This document shows positions 24,276 through 32,094 of a DNA stretch of 64,000 nt, in pieces. Numbering within the stretch: the stretch's first letter is position 1; each line of letters starts with the position of its first letter. The position numbers and the translations under genes were made by a program. Source of the DNA: Prochlorococcus sp. AG-409-K04 (lineage in GTDB: Bacteria > Cyanobacteriota > Cyanobacteriia > PCC-6307 > Cyanobiaceae); contig QCKE01000002.1 in the NCBI GenBank assembly GCA_003215555.1, positions 1 through 64,000 on the forward strand. The letters run 5' to 3'. The notes beneath the pieces are model-generated. The model was given only the letters and a program-made list of their open reading frames with translations, did no database searches and was not told where the DNA came from.

Positions 24276-24366
24276 TATGCTAAGAAAATGTTGATCATGT
24301 TGACCCACTTTTATAGATGAAAAATATCTATAATTTTTATCTTTGCTCAGCAGCTCTCTTTATCTA

Positions 24367-25314
24367 ATGTCTTCATTAGTTGCCACTCCAAATCCCTCTT
24401 GGAACTATTTAGGCCATGAGGTTTATTCTGTGAAGAGTGCTCCCTTAGATAGTGATACAAAAAGTTTGGGTAAGGGAAAAGAACCTGTTGTGCTGCTTGT
24501 TCATGGATTTGGTGCTTCTACTGATCACTGGCGATACAACATTCCTGCTTTAGCGAAATCCTATGAGGTTCATGCAATTGATTTATTAGGGTTTGGACGT
24601 AGCGCTAAGCCTTCTGACCTGGAGTATGGAGGAGAATTGTGGAAGGAACAAGTTGTTGCATATGTAAATGAAAGGATTCAAAAAAAGACAGTAATTGTTG
24701 GTAATTCTTTAGGTGGATATGCTGCTTTAGCTGCAGGGGCTGCCTTGAAAACCGAATCAGCTGGAGTGGTTTTATTAAATGCTGCGGGATATTTTAGCGA
24801 TGAGACTATTGAATCTACACCGACTGACCTCAAATCAAGGATTGGGAAAATGGTTGGTAAAGGAATCTCTAGGGATTTATTGATTAAATGGTTTATTTAT
24901 CCTTTTATTCAAAGATTGATTTTTGAAAATTTGCGAAGACCAAAGGTTATTCGTAACACACTTAAGCAAGTTTATATCGACTCTTCTAATGTTGATGATT
25001 TTTTAATTGATTCCATTCGAAGGCCTTCGTTAGATCCTGGGGCATTTCAAGTTTTTCAAAAAGTTTTTCAAGCGCGTGGTTTAAAAGGAAAGCCGATTGA
25101 TGAATTGTTTAATGATCTTCAATCGCCTCTTTTATTGCTTTGGGGGAATAGTGATCCATGGCTTAGAAATGCAAAAGCAAAACAAGAAAAATTTCGTATG
25201 TTTGCTCACAAAGCTTCATTAGAGGTTACCGAGGTTCTACTTAATGCTGGACATTGTCCTCACGATGAAGTGCCAGATTTGGTAAATAAAGAAATGTTGA
25301 ATTGGTTAATGTGA
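24367..25314 (+). CDS. Alpha/beta hydrolase
   Basis: 315 residues from the ATG at 24367; an upstream in-frame TTG is less likely. It has the oxyanion-hole VHGFGAS (about residue 55), the nucleophile elbow GNSLGG (Ser near 119), an Asp in the GNSDPWL segment and a His in NAGHCPHDE, which together make a complete catalytic triad. It resembles cyanobacterial and chloroplast hydrolases of the haloalkane dehalogenase/pheophytinase-like group. The substrate is unknown. The epimerase-like gene follows 40 bp later. Confidence 0.88.
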   Translation: MSSLVATPNPSWNYLGHEVYSVKSAPLDSDTKSLGKGKEPVVLLVHGFGASTDHWRYNIPALAKSYEVHAIDLLGFGRSAKPSDLEYGGELWKEQVVAYVNERIQKKTVIVGNSLGGYAALAAGAALKTESAGVVLLNAAGYFSDETIESTPTDLKSRIGKMVGKGISRDLLIKWFIYPFIQRLIFENLRRPKVIRNTLKQVYIDSSNVDDFLIDSIRRPSLDPGAFQVFQKVFQARGLKGKPIDELFNDLQSPLLLLWGNSDPWLRNAKAKQEKFRMFAHKASLEVTEVLLNAGHCPHDEVPDLVNKEMLNWLM

Positions 25315-25354
25315 ACATATTATATGTTTAGACAAAAGATTATTTGAATTAATC

Positions 25355-26197
25355 GTGCTTACGAGAAAATTATTACCATATGATCATTGGGAATTTACAT
25401 TAAATAAATCTAATTTTTTGCGAATAGTTCCAGCGAGAGGTGGTTTGATCTCATCGTGGGTTTGTAATGATCAAGAAATACTTTATTTTGATGAGCAGCG
25501 TTTTAAAGACTCTCTGCAGAGTGTCAGAGGTGGTATTCCCATCCTATTTCCTATTTGTGGCAGTTTATCCTCGAATAAATGTGTTTTACAAGGTCGAGAG
25601 TATTTGATGAATCAGCATGGATTTGCAAGAAATTTATCTTGGGACATTAAATATATCGAAGAAAAAAAAATAATCTTATTAAGTATGTCTAGCTCTAAGG
25701 AAACAATGCTTCAATTTCCTTATTCGTTTTTACTCGAAATTGAAGTTAAACTTACTACAAATGCTTTGAATTTCAAAGCTATTGTTTATAATTTTAGTCA
25801 GGAAAAAATGCCTTTTTGTTTTGGATTACATCCATATTTTACTGTGTCTAACTTGGAGCATCTTTCTTTGGTTGGTTTAGATAATACATGCTTAGATCAG
25901 AATATAATGAAATATTATTCGACCGATAATAAATTAGTTGAACTTTCTCGAGGAGTAGATTTTCTGGCTAAAATGTCAGAGCCTATAAGATTAATAGATT
26001 TATTAACGGGGAGACAAATAGAATTTAAATATTTACGATCATTTTCAAATGTTGTTGTTTGGACTGATCCGCCGAGAAAGATGATTTGTGTGGAACCTTG
26101 GACTAGCCCGAGAAATGCATTGAATACTGGGGAGGAATTGATGTCTGTTGAGCCTGGTTCTAGTAAAGAATTGTTTTGCAGTTTGATTGTTTCATAA
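25355..26197 (+). CDS. Aldose 1-epimerase-like protein (galactose mutarotase fold)
   Basis: 280 residues. The beta-sandwich mutarotase pattern is seen in LRIVPARGGLISSWVCNDQE, the GGIPILFPICG motif, QHGFARNLSWDI (the His of the HGFAR motif is the expected catalytic base), PFCFGLHPYF (second His) and VVWTDPPRKMICVEPWTSP with a conserved Glu. This resembles glucose-6-phosphate 1-epimerase-like proteins. It catalyses anomer interconversion of an unidentified sugar or sugar phosphate. The start is GTG. The following 79 bp are about 90 percent A+T, and dld comes next. Confidence 0.82.
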   Translation: MLTRKLLPYDHWEFTLNKSNFLRIVPARGGLISSWVCNDQEILYFDEQRFKDSLQSVRGGIPILFPICGSLSSNKCVLQGREYLMNQHGFARNLSWDIKYIEEKKIILLSMSSSKETMLQFPYSFLLEIEVKLTTNALNFKAIVYNFSQEKMPFCFGLHPYFTVSNLEHLSLVGLDNTCLDQNIMKYYSTDNKLVELSRGVDFLAKMSEPIRLIDLLTGRQIEFKYLRSFSNVVVWTDPPRKMICVEPWTSPRNALNTGEELMSVEPGSSKELFCSLIVS

Positions 26198-26276
26198 CTG
26201 AATTATTAACATTATAAATATATAATTTTTATTTTAATTAAAACTAATTATTTTATTTTTATATTTTGTATTGATT

Positions 26277-27968
26277 ATGAAAAACGACATTTTTCTCGAT
26301 AAAGTTGTAGCTATTGTTGGTGCTAAGAATGTCATTTCTCAAAAGAAAAAAACTGATTTTTATAGTACTGGAATTAGAATTGGAGAAGGTTTGGTTGAAT
26401 TTGTTCTCTTTCCAAAGAACTTATGGGATCTATGGAGAATATTAGAACAATGTATTGCTTTTAATAAAATAATAATTATGCAAGCTGCTAATACAGGTTT
26501 GACTGGTGGATCTACACCAGATGGAGATTCTTATGATAGGGATGTAGTTATCATAAATTGTCTTTCAATTGATAAGCTTACTTTGATTAATAATGCCACT
26601 CAAGTCATTGCACTTCCTGGAACTACTTTATATCAATTGGAAAAGGCATTGTTGCCTTATTATCGAGGACCTCATTCTATTATTGGATCTTCTTGCATAG
26701 GTGCATCTGTCATTGGAGGGGTATGTAATAATTCTGGTGGAAATTTGGTGAATAGAGGCCCAGCATATACAGAATTATCATTATTTGCACGTTTAAATAA
26801 GGCTGGAAAATTAGAATTGATTAATCATTTAGGAATTGATTTAGGAGAAACACCTGAGTTAATTTTGCATAATCTGCAAAGTTCGAATTATGATCCTTTG
26901 AGTGTTCCTTTGACTGATCGTTGTGCATCTGATAGTCAATATGTTACTCGTTTGAGAGATTTGGATGCTAGTTCTCCAGCAAGGTTTAATGCCGATCCCA
27001 GACGTCTATATGAATCCAGTGGATGTGCTGGTAAAATCGCAGTGTTTGCAGTTAGATTGGATACTTTTCCTTTGCCTCAAGAGGAAAAGCTTTACTTTTT
27101 AGGAACAAATAATCCAGATAATTTCACTAATCTACGAGAAAATATATTAAGAAATAGTCCTGAATTACCAGACATGGCTGAATATATGCATTCTAGTTAT
27201 TTTGATGCATCTTCTAGATATTGTAAGGATATCTTCCTTTTTATAAAGTATTTTGGAACAACATTCTTGAGAAAATTTTTATATATTAAGAAGTCTGTTG
27301 ATCAATTTTTTTGTGATACTAAAATTTTCCCAAACAATGTTACAGATTTATTTTTACAGTTTATATCTAATTTATTCCCTAGTCATATTCCACAAAGAAT
27401 TTGTTCTTATAGAAAGAAATATGATCATTTAATGTTTTTTTTAACCAGTGACGGATCTATCAATAGTATAAAAAATATCTTAGATAAAGAGAAAAGTATA
27501 AGCAATGACTTTGAATATATTGAGTGTACTGTTAAAGAAGCAAAAGATTTATTGCTTCATAGGTATGTTGCTGGTTCAGCGCCTTCTAGATATAAGATGC
27601 TTAATTCTAAAGATTCGGGAGAAATTCTTCCTCTAGATGTTGCATTTCCACGAAATTGCAAAGAATGGCATAATATTATTCCTTCTGATATTTTATCTAA
27701 AATGGAAGTATCATTTGTAATGTCTCATTTCTTTTGTATGGTTTTTCATCTAGATTTTGTTGTTAAAAAAGGAGTAGATGCTCAATCAGTTAAAGAAGAA
27801 ATATTGAAGTTTTTTGATGAGAAAAATGTGAAATATCCTGCTGAACATAATGTAGGTAATTTATATAAAGCTGACAAAGAGCTAGCCTCTTTTTATCGCA
27901 ATCTCGATCCTACAAATACATTTAATGCTGGTGTAGGTAAAATGTCGAAAAGAAAGTTTTATAATTAA
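26277..27968 (+). CDS. dld: Quinone-dependent D-lactate dehydrogenase
   Basis: 563 residues (E. coli Dld 571). Collinear with Dld throughout: an FAD-binding PCMH domain with MQAANTGLTGGSTPDG and SCIGASVIGGVCNNSGG (about residues 65-155), then RLYESSGCAGKIAVFAVRLD, LFPSHIPQRICSYRKKYDH, and the C-terminal YPAEHNVGNLYKADKELASF with DPTNTFNAGVGKMSKRK. It oxidises D-lactate and reduces membrane quinone. The ATG at 26277 is preferred over the TTG two codons upstream. This is an E. coli-type enzyme rather than the GlcD type, and its gene is more A+T-rich than the core genes around it, so transfer is possible. Confidence 0.93.
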   Translation: MKNDIFLDKVVAIVGAKNVISQKKKTDFYSTGIRIGEGLVEFVLFPKNLWDLWRILEQCIAFNKIIIMQAANTGLTGGSTPDGDSYDRDVVIINCLSIDKLTLINNATQVIALPGTTLYQLEKALLPYYRGPHSIIGSSCIGASVIGGVCNNSGGNLVNRGPAYTELSLFARLNKAGKLELINHLGIDLGETPELILHNLQSSNYDPLSVPLTDRCASDSQYVTRLRDLDASSPARFNADPRRLYESSGCAGKIAVFAVRLDTFPLPQEEKLYFLGTNNPDNFTNLRENILRNSPELPDMAEYMHSSYFDASSRYCKDIFLFIKYFGTTFLRKFLYIKKSVDQFFCDTKIFPNNVTDLFLQFISNLFPSHIPQRICSYRKKYDHLMFFLTSDGSINSIKNILDKEKSISNDFEYIECTVKEAKDLLLHRYVAGSAPSRYKMLNSKDSGEILPLDVAFPRNCKEWHNIIPSDILSKMEVSFVMSHFFCMVFHLDFVVKKGVDAQSVKEEILKFFDEKNVKYPAEHNVGNLYKADKELASFYRNLDPTNTFNAGVGKMSKRKFYN

Positions 27969-28096
27969 CGCAATTACAATTTTTGGAAAGATTTTTAATT
28001 TTGATAGCTTATGATTTTTTCTAAATTAAAATTAGCTTAAAGTATGGTGAATCATGTAATATTTAGGAATTAGTTATTGAGTATTTAATTTTAGGC

Positions 28097-29269
28097 ATGT
28101 TAGCTAATGTATCTTCTCCTTCGATAGTCAATATTAGCGATCTTCGTTTAATGGCAGAGAAAAGACTACCTCGAATGGTCTTTGATTATATTGATAGTGG
28201 CGCTGATAGAGAGCAAACATTATCGGACAATTGTACTGCTTATAAGGAAATTTTGTTTCGACCACGATGTGCTGTTGCAACTCCATCTTGTGATTTATCC
28301 ATTTCCGTTTTGGAACAGGATTTTCAACTTCCTTTTCTTTTAGCTCCGGTTGGTAGTAGCCGTATGTTTTATCCACAAGGTGAGGTGGTTGCTGCTCGTG
28401 AAGCCGGTATTGCTGGTACAGGTTATACGCTTTCTACGTTGTCAGGATGCAGGTTGGAAGATGTGAAGCAAGCAACTAATTTTCCAGCGTGGTATCAATT
28501 ATATCTTTTGGGTGGCAGAGATGTGGCTTTAAAAACCATAGAGAGAGCAAGGTTAGCCGGTTATTCGGCAATAGTGGTAACGATTGATACGCCTGTCTCA
28601 GGACTACGCGAACGTGATTTACGCAATGGGACCAAAGAGTTGCTTTCTATGAATCCAATTAAGATGTTTCCTTATCTTTCGCAGATTCTTGTTAAGCCTT
28701 GTTGGATGACTCAATGGTTGAGTGATGGAGGATTAATGAGTTTTCCCAATGTGGAGCTTCAAGATGGTCCTATGGGTTATACAGAAATTGGCCCAGCTTT
28801 AGAAGCATCAGTTGTCACTTGGAAAGATCTTGATTGGATTCGTGAAGCATGGGGTGGAAAAATTCTTGTGAAAGGAGTTCATATTGGTGATGATGCTAAA
28901 AAAGCTATTGATTTAGGTGTAGATGGCATTGTTGTTTCAAATCATGGGGCTCGTCAATTAGATAGTGTTGCGCCAACGATTCGGGTTTTACCTGAGGTAG
29001 TCAAAGCTGCTAATGGGCAAATAGATGTTCTACTTGATGGGGGAATTAGAAGAGGGAGTGATGTTGTTAAAGCTTTATGTTTAGGAGCTAAGGCAGTTTT
29101 AATTGGAAGGGCCTATGCGTATGGATTAGGTGCAGCAGGAGGGCCTGGTGTGGCACGTGCAATAGATATTATTAAATCAGATGTTTTGAGAACCATGAAA
29201 TTATTAGGGTGTGATTCTATAAAGAATTTGAATCCTTCTTTTATACAATTTCCTGATGATTGGAAGTAA
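28097..29269 (+). CDS. lldD: FMN-dependent 2-hydroxyacid dehydrogenase (L-lactate dehydrogenase / glycolate oxidase family)
   Basis: 390 residues of a TIM-barrel FMN enzyme oxidising L-2-hydroxyacids. Visible features are FDYIDSGADREQTL, LAPVGSSRMFYPQGE, the substrate-binding YQLYLLGGRD, VVTIDTPVSGLRERD, the FMN/substrate lysine in ILVKGVH, the catalytic SNHGARQLD (His and Arg), and the FMN phosphate loop DGGIRRGSDV with GRAYAYGLGAAG. The SNHGARQLD form is shared with plant glycolate oxidase and bacterial lactate oxidase, whereas many LldD have SNHGGRQLD. The substrate may therefore be L-lactate, glycolate or a larger hydroxyacid. It lies between dld and the acid sugar kinase. Confidence 0.88.
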   Translation: MLANVSSPSIVNISDLRLMAEKRLPRMVFDYIDSGADREQTLSDNCTAYKEILFRPRCAVATPSCDLSISVLEQDFQLPFLLAPVGSSRMFYPQGEVVAAREAGIAGTGYTLSTLSGCRLEDVKQATNFPAWYQLYLLGGRDVALKTIERARLAGYSAIVVTIDTPVSGLRERDLRNGTKELLSMNPIKMFPYLSQILVKPCWMTQWLSDGGLMSFPNVELQDGPMGYTEIGPALEASVVTWKDLDWIREAWGGKILVKGVHIGDDAKKAIDLGVDGIVVSNHGARQLDSVAPTIRVLPEVVKAANGQIDVLLDGGIRRGSDVVKALCLGAKAVLIGRAYAYGLGAAGGPGVARAIDIIKSDVLRTMKLLGCDSIKNLNPSFIQFPDDWK

Positions 29270-29309
29270 TCTTTTACCTTTTTTAAATTAGGAAAAAGAT
29301 TATAATGAC

Positions 29310-30656
29310 ATGAAAATTATAATTTTTGATGATGATCCTACTGGATCTCAAACTGTTTATGGATGTCCTTTGGTCTTACAATTAAACAAAGAAGTATTAA
29401 TAGAGTGGTTTAAAGATCCATCTCCCTTAATTTTTTTACTGATGAATACGCGATCATTATCAGTTAATAAGGCACAAGAGCGCATGAGAGAAGCTTGTCA
29501 ATTGGTGAAAGAAGTAATTTTGGATCATGGAATGAAATTGCAAGAGTTTGTGTTTATTAGTAGAGGTGATTCAACATTAAGGGGACATTGGATTTTAGAG
29601 CCTAAGATTATCAATGAAGTGTTGGGACCCTTTGACGCTACTTTTCATGTTCCTTCCTTTTTTGAAGGTGGCAGAACAACTGTTGATGGCATACATCTTT
29701 TAAATAATATTCCGGTTCATCAAACAATTTTTGCTAAAGATAAGATTTTTGGATATACAACTAGTGATTTAGCTTTGTGGTTACAAGAAAAAAGCAATTT
29801 TGAATATATAGCTAAAGATATTGCTTCAATTTCTATTGCCCAGTTAGATGATCCTGATGCTTATCAAAAAAATAAGTTGCTTAAATATTTGTCTTATTTA
29901 TCAGGTAATAAATTTTGTATTGTTAATGCAGCATGCTCTCAACATCTAAATACTTTTTCAGCTATTGTTATACCTTTAATGAAGAAAAAGAGGTTCTTAT
30001 TTCGATCCGCCGCTAGTTTGATTAATTCTTTATCAGATATTAAATCTAAAGTGCAACCTACTAATAATTTTACTTGTTTTAGGAGAAAAGATCATTCTGG
30101 TAAACTAAAACCTGGGCTAATAATAGTTGGTTCTCATATTCAGTTAGCGGGTGAACAATTAAGAATTTTGTTGCAAGAACAATCTTGTATTGGAGTTCAT
30201 GTAGATGCAAGAAATATTGCAAACATTTTTGAAAAAGAAGATGCAAATGGCGCTTTCACTCAACTAGATGAAAAGTATTCCAAGGAATTAGTACGAATTT
30301 TAGAAATGCATCAAACTCCTGTTCTTTATACAAGCAGAATTGAAGTTACTTTTTCCTCAATTGAGAAAAGGATGGAATTTGGTATTTTCTTGGCAGAATT
30401 TATGAGTCAATTGGTCTCAAAAATTTCTAAGAAAGTTGGTTATATAATATCTAAAGGTGGAATTACAACCCATATATTGCTATCTAAGGGATTGAAAATA
30501 TCTACTCTTCATTTAAAAGGTCAAATTCTTCCTGGATTATCTGTAGTCTCTTCTTATGCTAAAAATCAAACCACACTTCCGATTATTACTTTCCCTGGTA
30601 ATTTAGGTGATAAAAATACTCTCTTAGAAGTATGGAAAATGATGGAAATTATTTGA
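29310..30656 (+). CDS. Four-carbon acid sugar kinase family protein (DUF1537 type)
   Basis: 448 residues. The N-terminal DDDPTGSQTVYG, the SRGDSTLRGH motif (about residue 86) and the VPSFFEGGRTTVDGIH segment are typical of the substrate domain of this family. The nucleotide-binding C-terminal domain has ISKGGITTHILL, GQILPGLSVV and TFPGNLGD. Known members phosphorylate D-threonate, erythronate or 3-oxo-tetronate. Here it stands next to two hydroxyacid dehydrogenases, without the usual PdxA2, aldolase or isomerase partners in the window. The substrate is therefore inferred only as an acid sugar. It converges with icd, 13 bp between the stops. Confidence 0.88.
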   Translation: MKIIIFDDDPTGSQTVYGCPLVLQLNKEVLIEWFKDPSPLIFLLMNTRSLSVNKAQERMREACQLVKEVILDHGMKLQEFVFISRGDSTLRGHWILEPKIINEVLGPFDATFHVPSFFEGGRTTVDGIHLLNNIPVHQTIFAKDKIFGYTTSDLALWLQEKSNFEYIAKDIASISIAQLDDPDAYQKNKLLKYLSYLSGNKFCIVNAACSQHLNTFSAIVIPLMKKKRFLFRSAASLINSLSDIKSKVQPTNNFTCFRRKDHSGKLKPGLIIVGSHIQLAGEQLRILLQEQSCIGVHVDARNIANIFEKEDANGAFTQLDEKYSKELVRILEMHQTPVLYTSRIEVTFSSIEKRMEFGIFLAEFMSQLVSKISKKVGYIISKGGITTHILLSKGLKISTLHLKGQILPGLSVVSSYAKNQTTLPIITFPGNLGDKNTLLEVWKMMEII

Positions 30657-30669
30657 TCTTGTAATGAGC

Positions 30670-32094
30670 TTAGAATCTTTCAATAATTGAATTTGCAAAT
30701 TCACTGCAACTTAATGGAGTTTCTTTGGGCTCCATTAATCTTGCGAGGTCATAAGTTACTTTTTTTTGAGAAATAGATTCACTTAAACCTTTTGTGATTA
30801 AGTCAGCAGCTTCTTGCCATCCTAGGAATTCGAGCATCATTACACCACTCAAAATCACCGAGCCTGGATTTATTCGATTGAGACCGGCATGTTTTGGAGC
30901 AGTTCCATGCGTAGCCTCAAATATGGCAGCTTCATCACCAATATTTGCACCGGGAGCCATACCTAGTCCTCCCACAATTGCAGCTGCAGCATCTGATATA
31001 TAGTCTCCATTCAGGTTTAAAGTCGCAAGTATTGAATATTCTTGAGGTCTTGTTTGAATTTGTTGAAAAATACTATCAGCTATTCTGTCATCAACTAAAA
31101 CCATTTCTTTCCATTTCCCATCACCATGAGTTGCATTAATATTATTAATTACTGATTTTACTTCTTGGCATATAATCTCTTTTTTATCTTCAGTCAATGA
31201 ATCAAATCCAGGATCTATTAATTTTGCATTATTTTCAATACTAAGATGAGGATTATTTTCTATATTATTTAATATCCAACTTTCTCTTTCGGTAATGCAT
31301 TCATCACGAAATTCAGTTGTTGCTAATTCATAACCCCAGTCTCGAAAAGAACCTTCTGTAAATTTCATAATATTTCCTTTATGAACCAAAGTTACATGTT
31401 TTTTTGTTCCTTCCAGTTTTAATGCGTGTTGGATTGCCCTTCTGATATGTCGTTGACTACCATATTTGCTTACAGGTTTAATTCCTATTCCTGATCCGTT
31501 TGGAATTCTACGATTCTTGATAGATTGACTAGAAGGTATGACTTGATTATTTAAATATTCTATAAGTTGAATGCCTTGTGGATCATTGGCTTCCCATTCA
31601 ATACCCATATAAATATCTTCAGTATTTTCTCGATAAACAATTACATCCAGTTTCTCAGGATTCTTATGAGGGCTAGGGGTTCCTTTGTAATAACGGCAAG
31701 GTCTGACGCAGCTATACAAATCGAATATTTGGCGAAGGGCAACATTTAATGATCTAATTCCTCCGCCCACTGGAGTTGTTAATGGGCCTTTAATAGCAAT
31801 TCCATAATGTCTTATTGCTTCAATTGTGTCCTTAGGCAGGTACTGATAAGTTCCATATAAATCGCAAGCTTCATCACCTGCAAATATTTTGAACCATTCA
31901 ATTTTTCGATTAATGCCATAAGCTTTTTTGACAGCTTTATCAAGTACTTTTTGCGTTGCAGGCCATATATCTACTCCTGTTCCATCTCCTCTAATAAATG
32001 GAATTATAGGATTATCTGGAACTATAGGAAGACCATTCTTAAATTCAATTTTTTTGCCTTTGGATGGATGAGATAATTTTGTAAAATTGACCAT
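30670..32094 (-). CDS. icd: NADP-dependent isocitrate dehydrogenase
   Basis: 474 residues, the longer form known in cyanobacteria. It converts isocitrate to 2-oxoglutarate, which supplies ammonium assimilation and is the nitrogen-status signal. Features are [15 protein letters not shown], the substrate-binding [43 protein letters not shown], and the conserved Mg2+-binding and cofactor segments [18 protein letters not shown] and [12 protein letters not shown]. It is divergent from a hypothetical gene. I found no convincing NtcA site (GTA-N8-TAC) in the 160-bp upstream gap. Confidence 0.96.

Follow-up and report, generated by a model that had tools for sequence, protein, structure and literature searches.

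Results and Discussion

Genes of the locus

The window, that is, the whole stretch of DNA analysed here, comprises 64,000 nucleotides of the genome of Prochlorococcus sp. AG-409-K04 (contig QCKE01000002.1). Between two conserved flanking genes, four genes follow one another on the same strand (25355–30656).

24343..25314, + strand: alpha/beta hydrolase; flanks the locus on the left, conserved
25355..26197, + strand: aldose-1-epimerase-like gene (Slr1438/3k25 type); core gene, left border of the exchange slot
26271..27968, + strand: dld, quinone-dependent D-lactate dehydrogenase of the E. coli type (FAD, PF09330); the module starts with it
28097..29269, + strand: FMN-dependent alpha-hydroxyacid dehydrogenase (FMN_dh); the slot holds glcE in relatives
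29310..30656, + strand: kinase of the DUF1537 family (SBD_N/NBD_C); cyanobacterial core gene that borders the slot on the right, outside the module
30670..32094, − strand: icd, NADP isocitrate dehydrogenase; flanks the locus on the right, conserved

The four same-strand genes described in the initial annotation are all present, and they are intact; Pfam and NCBIfam agree with the families proposed there. PDB relatives were found for the products of the epimerase, dld and FMN_dh genes; a PDB search with the DUF1537 kinase gave no significant match. The description of the four genes as an accessory cluster is correct for dld, detected at strong E-values in 17 of 60 cyanobacterial relatives, and for the FMN gene, with an orthologue in 18 of them. 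It is wrong for the epimerase (53 of 60) and the DUF1537 kinase (57 of 60, spanning 24 cyanobacterial families), which are core genes. The four genes are not one acquired pathway.

Gene order and repeated switching

In relatives lacking dld and the FMN gene, the order is epimerase, glcE, DUF1537, glcF, icd. DUF1537 is flanked by glcE and glcF in 24 glcEF loci (20 loci taken as one set and four more, L101–L104). The place of glcE is taken in Prochlorococcus by the dld-FMN module. The module of Synechococcus is inverted and sits where glcF would be, with its order and spacing unchanged, and the FMN gene is found beyond the kinase on the opposite strand; eight Synechococcus loci carry the FMN gene. 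The gene-order comparison proposed earlier revealed no scattering of the genes in relatives. Wherever it was examined, the FMN gene was at this one locus: in 44 of 44 named loci and in every further locus with an FMN orthologue that we read. When the FMN state was placed on the tree of the adjacent icd gene, about six changes were needed, at least four of them forced by well-supported branches. In one genome (G029), DUF1537 is retained and neither dehydrogenase is present. We also considered whether the linkage of DUF1537 with the glc genes is ancient. This was not borne out by the three genomes read outside Cyanobiaceae (L106–L108), none of which has the linkage.

Mutual exclusion with GlcDEF

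Among 400 Cyanobiaceae genomes, which are phylogenetically non-independent and in many cases incomplete, 203 contain GlcF and 79 contain the FMN orthologue, with no overlap. GlcD was absent from all 79 FMN-positive genomes and present in all 15 GlcF-positive genomes tested. The glcD gene is located at another locus than glcE and glcF, yet it is lost together with them in the FMN-positive genomes. Since no searched genome has both systems, the module is probably a replacement and not a new sugar-acid pathway. The swap is not just a matter of genome reduction, because larger Synechococcus genomes (2.4–3.1 Mb) have undergone it too. A third state was found in a small-genome genus of Cyanobiaceae (g17), which is probably high-light Prochlorococcus: its 17 near-complete genomes contain neither GlcDEF nor the FMN enzyme. 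Glycolate oxidation thus appears to be dispensable in some lineages, since these genomes do without either enzyme.

The FMN enzyme

The FMN_dh product matches PF01070 with 406.8 bits against a gathering score of 24.9. The catalytic residues Y31, D164, R171, K259, H283 and R286 are all present and are invariant in 13 picocyanobacterial orthologues. In these residues, in the Gly that follows the pocket Val (Gly86, beside the flavin as in LldD) and in its long loop, the enzyme resembles LldD and (S)-mandelate dehydrogenase; E. coli LldD is 39% identical to it. Loop 4 (178–239) has 61 residues compared to 39 in plant glycolate oxidase (GOX). In mandelate dehydrogenase, the long loop binds the membrane. 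By its loop 4 and Gly, the enzyme would belong to the membrane quinone-linked subgroup (LldD/mandelate dehydrogenase), with putative membrane binding. It differs from LldD in scoring below the curated cut-offs (NF033901, 278.6 bits of the required 550; PRK11197, 315.9 of 376) and in forming, with its orthologues, a separate, well-supported cyanobacterial branch with about 40% identity to known relatives.

Plant and algal GOX and cyanobacterial lactate oxidase (LOX) share the fold and the catalytic residues of the FMN enzyme. The glycolate specificity of GOX from plants and algae is associated with a T/W/V triad (No-LOX positions 82, 112 and 212) (PMC7020209). The FMN enzyme lacks the T and W, having V85 and L115 instead, and the third position falls in an ambiguous loop. 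V85 and L115 are nearer to the residues of the lactate enzymes. With no plant-type glycolate-oxidase signature, the FMN enzyme may instead be a lactate enzyme. The best PDB fold matches of the AlphaFold model are glycolate oxidases; owing to its mediocre quality (pLDDT 67, low in the 165–237 loop), we used the model for the fold only. For Prochlorococcus, in which H2O2 scavenging has been lost by some strains (PMC10128935), an oxidase that produces peroxide would be burdensome.

Dld and cohesion of the module

The dld product scores 784 bits against NF008387, for which the equivalog cut-off is 391, and 343 bits against the membrane-binding domain PF09330. This domain is common to it and E. coli Dld, to which it is 49% identical over nearly the full length. 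Unlike the E. coli gene, dld of the window is linked to the FMN gene; its physiological role in picocyanobacteria is putative. We found dld in 45 of the 400 Cyanobiaceae genomes, 42 of them FMN-positive. Dld occurs in 42 of 79 FMN-positive genomes versus 1 of 203 GlcF-positive genomes. The two genes adjoin in 33 genomes, and in all 33 the spacing is 115–143 bp, in both placements of the module. These counts contradict the initial annotation in one respect, namely that such a combination is not known from picocyanobacteria. They bear it out in another, since dld and FMN_dh are a linked pair of accessory genes for hydroxyacid oxidation, probably of the quinone-coupled type. In the other 37 FMN-positive genomes, including nearly all of genus g79, dld was not detected.

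Proposed replacement of GlcDEF and alternative explanations

We consider it rather probable that the three-subunit GlcDEF has been replaced by the non-orthologous FMN enzyme, often accompanied by Dld. In cyanobacteria and E. coli, GlcDEF consists of two FAD proteins and an iron-sulphur protein, whereas the FMN enzyme is one FMN TIM-barrel protein of an unrelated family. In the genomes searched, the two systems never occur together, have a common genomic address around DUF1537 and have been switched repeatedly; the glycolate activity of the FMN enzyme is putative. Both would catalyse the same reaction and pass electrons to the membrane chain. The substrate of the FMN enzyme would be photorespiratory glycolate, oxidised to glyoxylate, and perhaps also L-lactate, oxidised to pyruvate, with electrons probably going to the membrane quinone pool and not to O2. 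GlcDEF-type enzymes also oxidise D-lactate, which an L-specific FMN enzyme cannot do, and Dld, joined to the module in many lineages, may restore this activity. In Chlamydomonas, D-lactate is about as good a substrate of glycolate dehydrogenase as glycolate is (PMC4722173), and knock-out of glcD1 in a cyanobacterium leads to a high-CO2 requirement (PMC8082822). The pattern agrees better with the loss and substitution of the endogenous glycolate dehydrogenase than with the mixotrophic uptake of foreign acids suggested initially. Against replacement count the residues V85 and L115, the LldD-like best model in NCBIfam, the non-independence and frequent incompleteness of the genomes and the existence of g17 without either enzyme. 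A GlcD2-like protein, found in nearly all genomes, also counts against it, as it might carry out glycolate oxidation alone. More tentatively, the module may represent a new type of photorespiratory glycolate dehydrogenase, in which a single quinone-linked FMN protein repeatedly displaces GlcDEF and Dld restores the lost D-lactate activity.

A lactate-utilisation module is a rather unlikely explanation. Dld would oxidise D-lactate and the LldD-like FMN enzyme L-lactate, internal or external lactate would feed the quinone pool, and the absence of GlcDEF would be a by-product of genome reduction. The V/L pocket residues, the tight dld-FMN linkage in 33 genomes and the LldD-like model with which the FMN enzyme scores highest in NCBIfam (316 bits, below the cut-off) are consistent with this, as is an approximately 5-fold increase of the dld transcript of strain SS120 with glucose (PMC2565063). 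However, many FMN-positive genomes lack a detected dld, and the cluster has no lactate permease. An unrelated function would hardly account for the complete lack of co-occurrence with GlcF and GlcD in 79 genomes, together with the shared locus and the repeated switches. It is very improbable that the common role of GlcDEF and the FMN enzyme is some other 2-hydroxyacid step tied to DUF1537, such as the oxidation of (4-phospho)erythronate for vitamin B6 (the PdxB step that is missing in cyanobacteria). The flanking of DUF1537 by glcE and glcF would suit such a role. Cyanobacteria lack PdxB, PdxR and Epd, and the PdxB candidate of Desulfovibrio is a GlcD/GlcF-like pair (PMC9997740); members of DUF1537 can make 4-phosphohydroxythreonine (PMC7954711). 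On the other hand, the 17 near-complete g17 genomes without either system presumably make B6, DUF1537 lies away from the glc genes in the three non-Cyanobiaceae genomes, and the phenotype of GlcD1 mutants is photorespiratory (PMC8082822).

According to the initial annotation, the locus might serve the breakdown of tetronates (threonate/erythronate), with the FMN enzyme taking the place of LtnD ahead of the DUF1537 kinase. FMN_dh and DUF1537 are indeed adjacent in Prochlorococcus (a 40-bp gap in the window), and a three-step threonate pathway is said to occur in cyanobacteria (PMC12540250). But the kinase is a core gene, has glcE and glcF as its neighbours elsewhere and is kept in G029 without any dehydrogenase, and the Synechococcus FMN gene lies beyond it on the opposite strand. 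The kinase is also far under the tetronate-kinase equivalog cut-offs (62.3 of 450 and 28.1 of 350 bits). None of LtnD, OtnC and OtnI is among the six genes at 24343–32094, and a separate NAD-type protein resembling LtnD and tartronate-semialdehyde reductase (TSR), below the cut-offs, is encoded on another contig of the genome. Since the kinase is a core gene with no coupling to the dehydrogenases, we reject the tetronate pathway as extremely improbable.

Relation to published work

A 2022 paper reported GOX/LOX candidates in low-light Prochlorococcus MIT9211 and NATL2A and none in any Synechococcus genome it examined (PMC9723591). These candidates are very probably the same gene as the FMN gene, because the latter is widespread in non-high-light Prochlorococcus here. 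That paper gives no account of the locus, the exclusion of GlcDEF or the dld module, and eight Synechococcus loci carry the gene in our set. In the literature searched, with partial coverage, we found no published report of GlcDEF replacement. The literature is divided on glycolate oxidation in Prochlorococcus: high-light strains are said to lack a glycolate-oxidising enzyme (PMC5715323), and a statement in PMC6278635 that cites Kern 2011 has the complete glycolate pathway kept in all cyanobacteria. The glycolate that Prochlorococcus excretes has been proposed as a carbon link to SAR11. The three picocyanobacterial states (GlcDEF, FMN enzyme or neither) would predict which lineages recycle glycolate and which excrete it. 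A single flavoprotein instead of an iron-sulphur complex may also save iron.

Base composition and divergence

The genes had been described as more A+T-rich than their neighbours. This applies to the epimerase, dld and DUF1537, with GC at the 8th–12th percentile among 48 ORFs of the window (for the epimerase, the figure refers to its longest ATG-initiated part). It does not apply to the FMN gene, with GC at the 88th percentile and average GC3. Recent foreign acquisition of the FMN gene is thus unsupported by composition. The neighbouring heme-oxygenase gene is as A+T-rich as the three genes. A search of viral contigs for a phage-borne form of the FMN gene returned no relative. Recent transfer between the Synechococcus genera g5 and g57 is likewise unsupported, because FMN identity (93%) is not above that of icd (91–93%). 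Across Prochlorococcus and Synechococcus, the FMN enzyme keeps 79–84% identity, similar to icd, and dld, the epimerase and DUF1537 drift, with 42–63% identity in the Prochlorococcus–Synechococcus comparison.

Gene content and gene order at the locus

The four genes studied in the window are the following:

25355-26197, + strand, epimerase-like protein of the Slr1438 type (PDB relative 3k25)
26271-27968, + strand, dld, a true quinone-dependent D-lactate dehydrogenase of the E. coli type (784 bits where the model requires 391; 49% identical to the E. coli protein)
28097-29269, + strand, FMN-dependent alpha-hydroxyacid dehydrogenase (PF01070 match), hereafter FMN
29310-30656, + strand, DUF1537 kinase with SBD_N and NBD_C domains

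All four are intact in this 1.4-Mb, 75% complete genome. They had been read as one accessory hydroxyacid/tetronate cluster. The accessory label holds for dld and FMN, found in 17 (strong E-values) and 18 (orthologues) of 60 relatives, and fails for the DUF1537 kinase (57/60; 36/36 near-complete genomes) and the epimerase (53/60). Thus, a two-gene module is inserted between two core genes. The kinase scored far under the D-threonate kinase and 3-oxo-tetronate kinase cut-offs. Named relatives of FMN are mostly Prochlorococcus single-cell genomes, the closest being 88% identical.

Most picocyanobacteria lacking FMN have the gene order epimerase>, <glcE, DUF1537>, <glcF, <icd; glcE and glcF, which encode subunits of the glycolate dehydrogenase GlcDEF, flank DUF1537 in each of the 24 glcEF loci that were read completely. 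Prochlorococcus FMN loci read epimerase>, FMN>, DUF1537>, <icd, with dld> not always present before FMN. The Synechococcus order is epimerase>, DUF1537>, <FMN, <dld, <icd (AG-673-A03, AG-673-F03, AG-679-A04, G293, G299, G305 and G325; in an eighth locus, G331, the contig stops inside dld). The module therefore occupies the glcE slot in Prochlorococcus and, inverted, the glcF slot in Synechococcus. The dld-FMN order and spacing (115-143 bp) are constant in 33/33 genomes where the two are adjacent, which suggests that they move as one unit. In L043 (G008:C2 73515-74937), icd is broken by an in-frame stop or frameshift, perhaps an assembly error in this single-cell genome.

The DUF1537 kinase is near-universal in cyanobacteria, including the small genome G029, whose locus is empty (epimerase>, DUF1537>, <icd). 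PdxB/PdxR/Epd are absent from cyanobacteria (PMC9997740), and members of the DUF1537 family are able to produce 4-phosphohydroxythreonine (PMC7954711); the kinase is a candidate for a role in vitamin B6 or in housekeeping.

Mutual exclusion of FMN and GlcDEF

Among 400 sampled Cyanobiaceae genomes, many of them incomplete single-cell or metagenome assemblies, GlcF was found in 203 and an FMN orthologue (at least 78% identity) in 79, with no overlap (hypergeometric P ~2e-29, relatedness ignored). The sole FMN-like protein of the GlcF genome G249 is a 42% paralogue. GlcD, encoded at another locus, was present in 15/15 GlcF+ genomes tested versus 0/79 FMN+ genomes, 27 of which are at least 90% complete. 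Thirteen more genomes have GlcD without detected GlcF, all fragmented or incomplete assemblies. To account for relatedness, the FMN state was traced on a phylogeny of icd, which lies next to it (54 rows). It requires six changes there, of which four or more are imposed by branches with good support, although icd adjoins the locus and may share its history. GlcD, GlcF and FMN were all absent from 17 near-complete genomes (1.6-1.7 Mb) of genus label g17, by their size probably high-light Prochlorococcus (genus and ecotype labels were assigned from genome size and named relatives). High-light Prochlorococcus has been described as having neither glycolate oxidase nor glycolate dehydrogenase (PMC5715323).

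Previously, dld was reported just in SS120 and MIT9211, its SS120 transcript rising ~5-fold on glucose (PMC2565063). Another study lists GOX/LOX candidates for MIT9211 and NATL2A and for none of the Synechococcus genomes it examined, and found GlcEF only in the two Synechococcus strains it studied (PMC9723591). In the literature searched, we found no description of the exchange at this locus, of FMN and GlcDEF excluding each other, or of FMN in Synechococcus.

Proposed roles of the FMN enzyme and Dld

Because FMN stands where relatives encode GlcDEF subunits, and glcD has been lost as well although it lies elsewhere, the FMN enzyme probably takes over glycolate oxidation. Every compared catalytic residue of the family is present, and conservation across Prochlorococcus and Synechococcus equals that of isocitrate dehydrogenase. 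Like LldD, the enzyme has a long loop 4 and a glycine (G86) beside the flavin. These features (the glycine is G81 in mandelate dehydrogenase) are typical of membrane quinone-linked dehydrogenases, not peroxide-forming oxidases. Judged from them, the enzyme would probably hand electrons to quinone rather than to O2. The chief evidence against the glycolate role is V85/L115 at the positions of the glycolate-specificity residues T/W (PMC7020209), so a lactate enzyme stays the main rival to glycolate oxidation.

Dld was found in 42/79 FMN+ versus 1/203 GlcF+ genomes (Fisher P 7e-27, relatedness ignored). In Chlamydomonas, a glycolate dehydrogenase of the GlcD type accepts D-lactate and glycolate about equally well (PMC4722173), so GlcDEF loss may remove D-lactate oxidation too. 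An FMN-family enzyme would be expected to take just glycolate and L-acids; we infer that Dld would fill the D-lactate gap.

A diverged dld set (51-56% identity to the window's dld) lies at other, varying loci: L119 (G152), L120 (G004) and L121 (G074). G152 is the single genome with both dld and GlcF. The 3.3-Mb Synechococcus-like genome G317 (L089, G317:C1:238000-256000; also L090) lacks GlcD and GlcF; its glcF slot keeps dld without FMN, and an FMN paralogue (42-44%) lies elsewhere, possibly a second replacement type. A tartronate-semialdehyde-reductase/LtnD-like protein, under cut-offs (L117, G000:C1:93500-97500; 1797-2672, - strand), occurs in most sampled FMN+ and GlcF+ genomes and was not found in G029. 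A GlcD2-like FAD protein (L118, G000:C6; 830-2176, - strand), a weak GlcD match (73 bits), occurs in nearly all Cyanobiaceae searched, with or without GlcDEF or FMN; in L118 its gene is preceded by a same-strand gene for a cytosine-deaminase-like protein.
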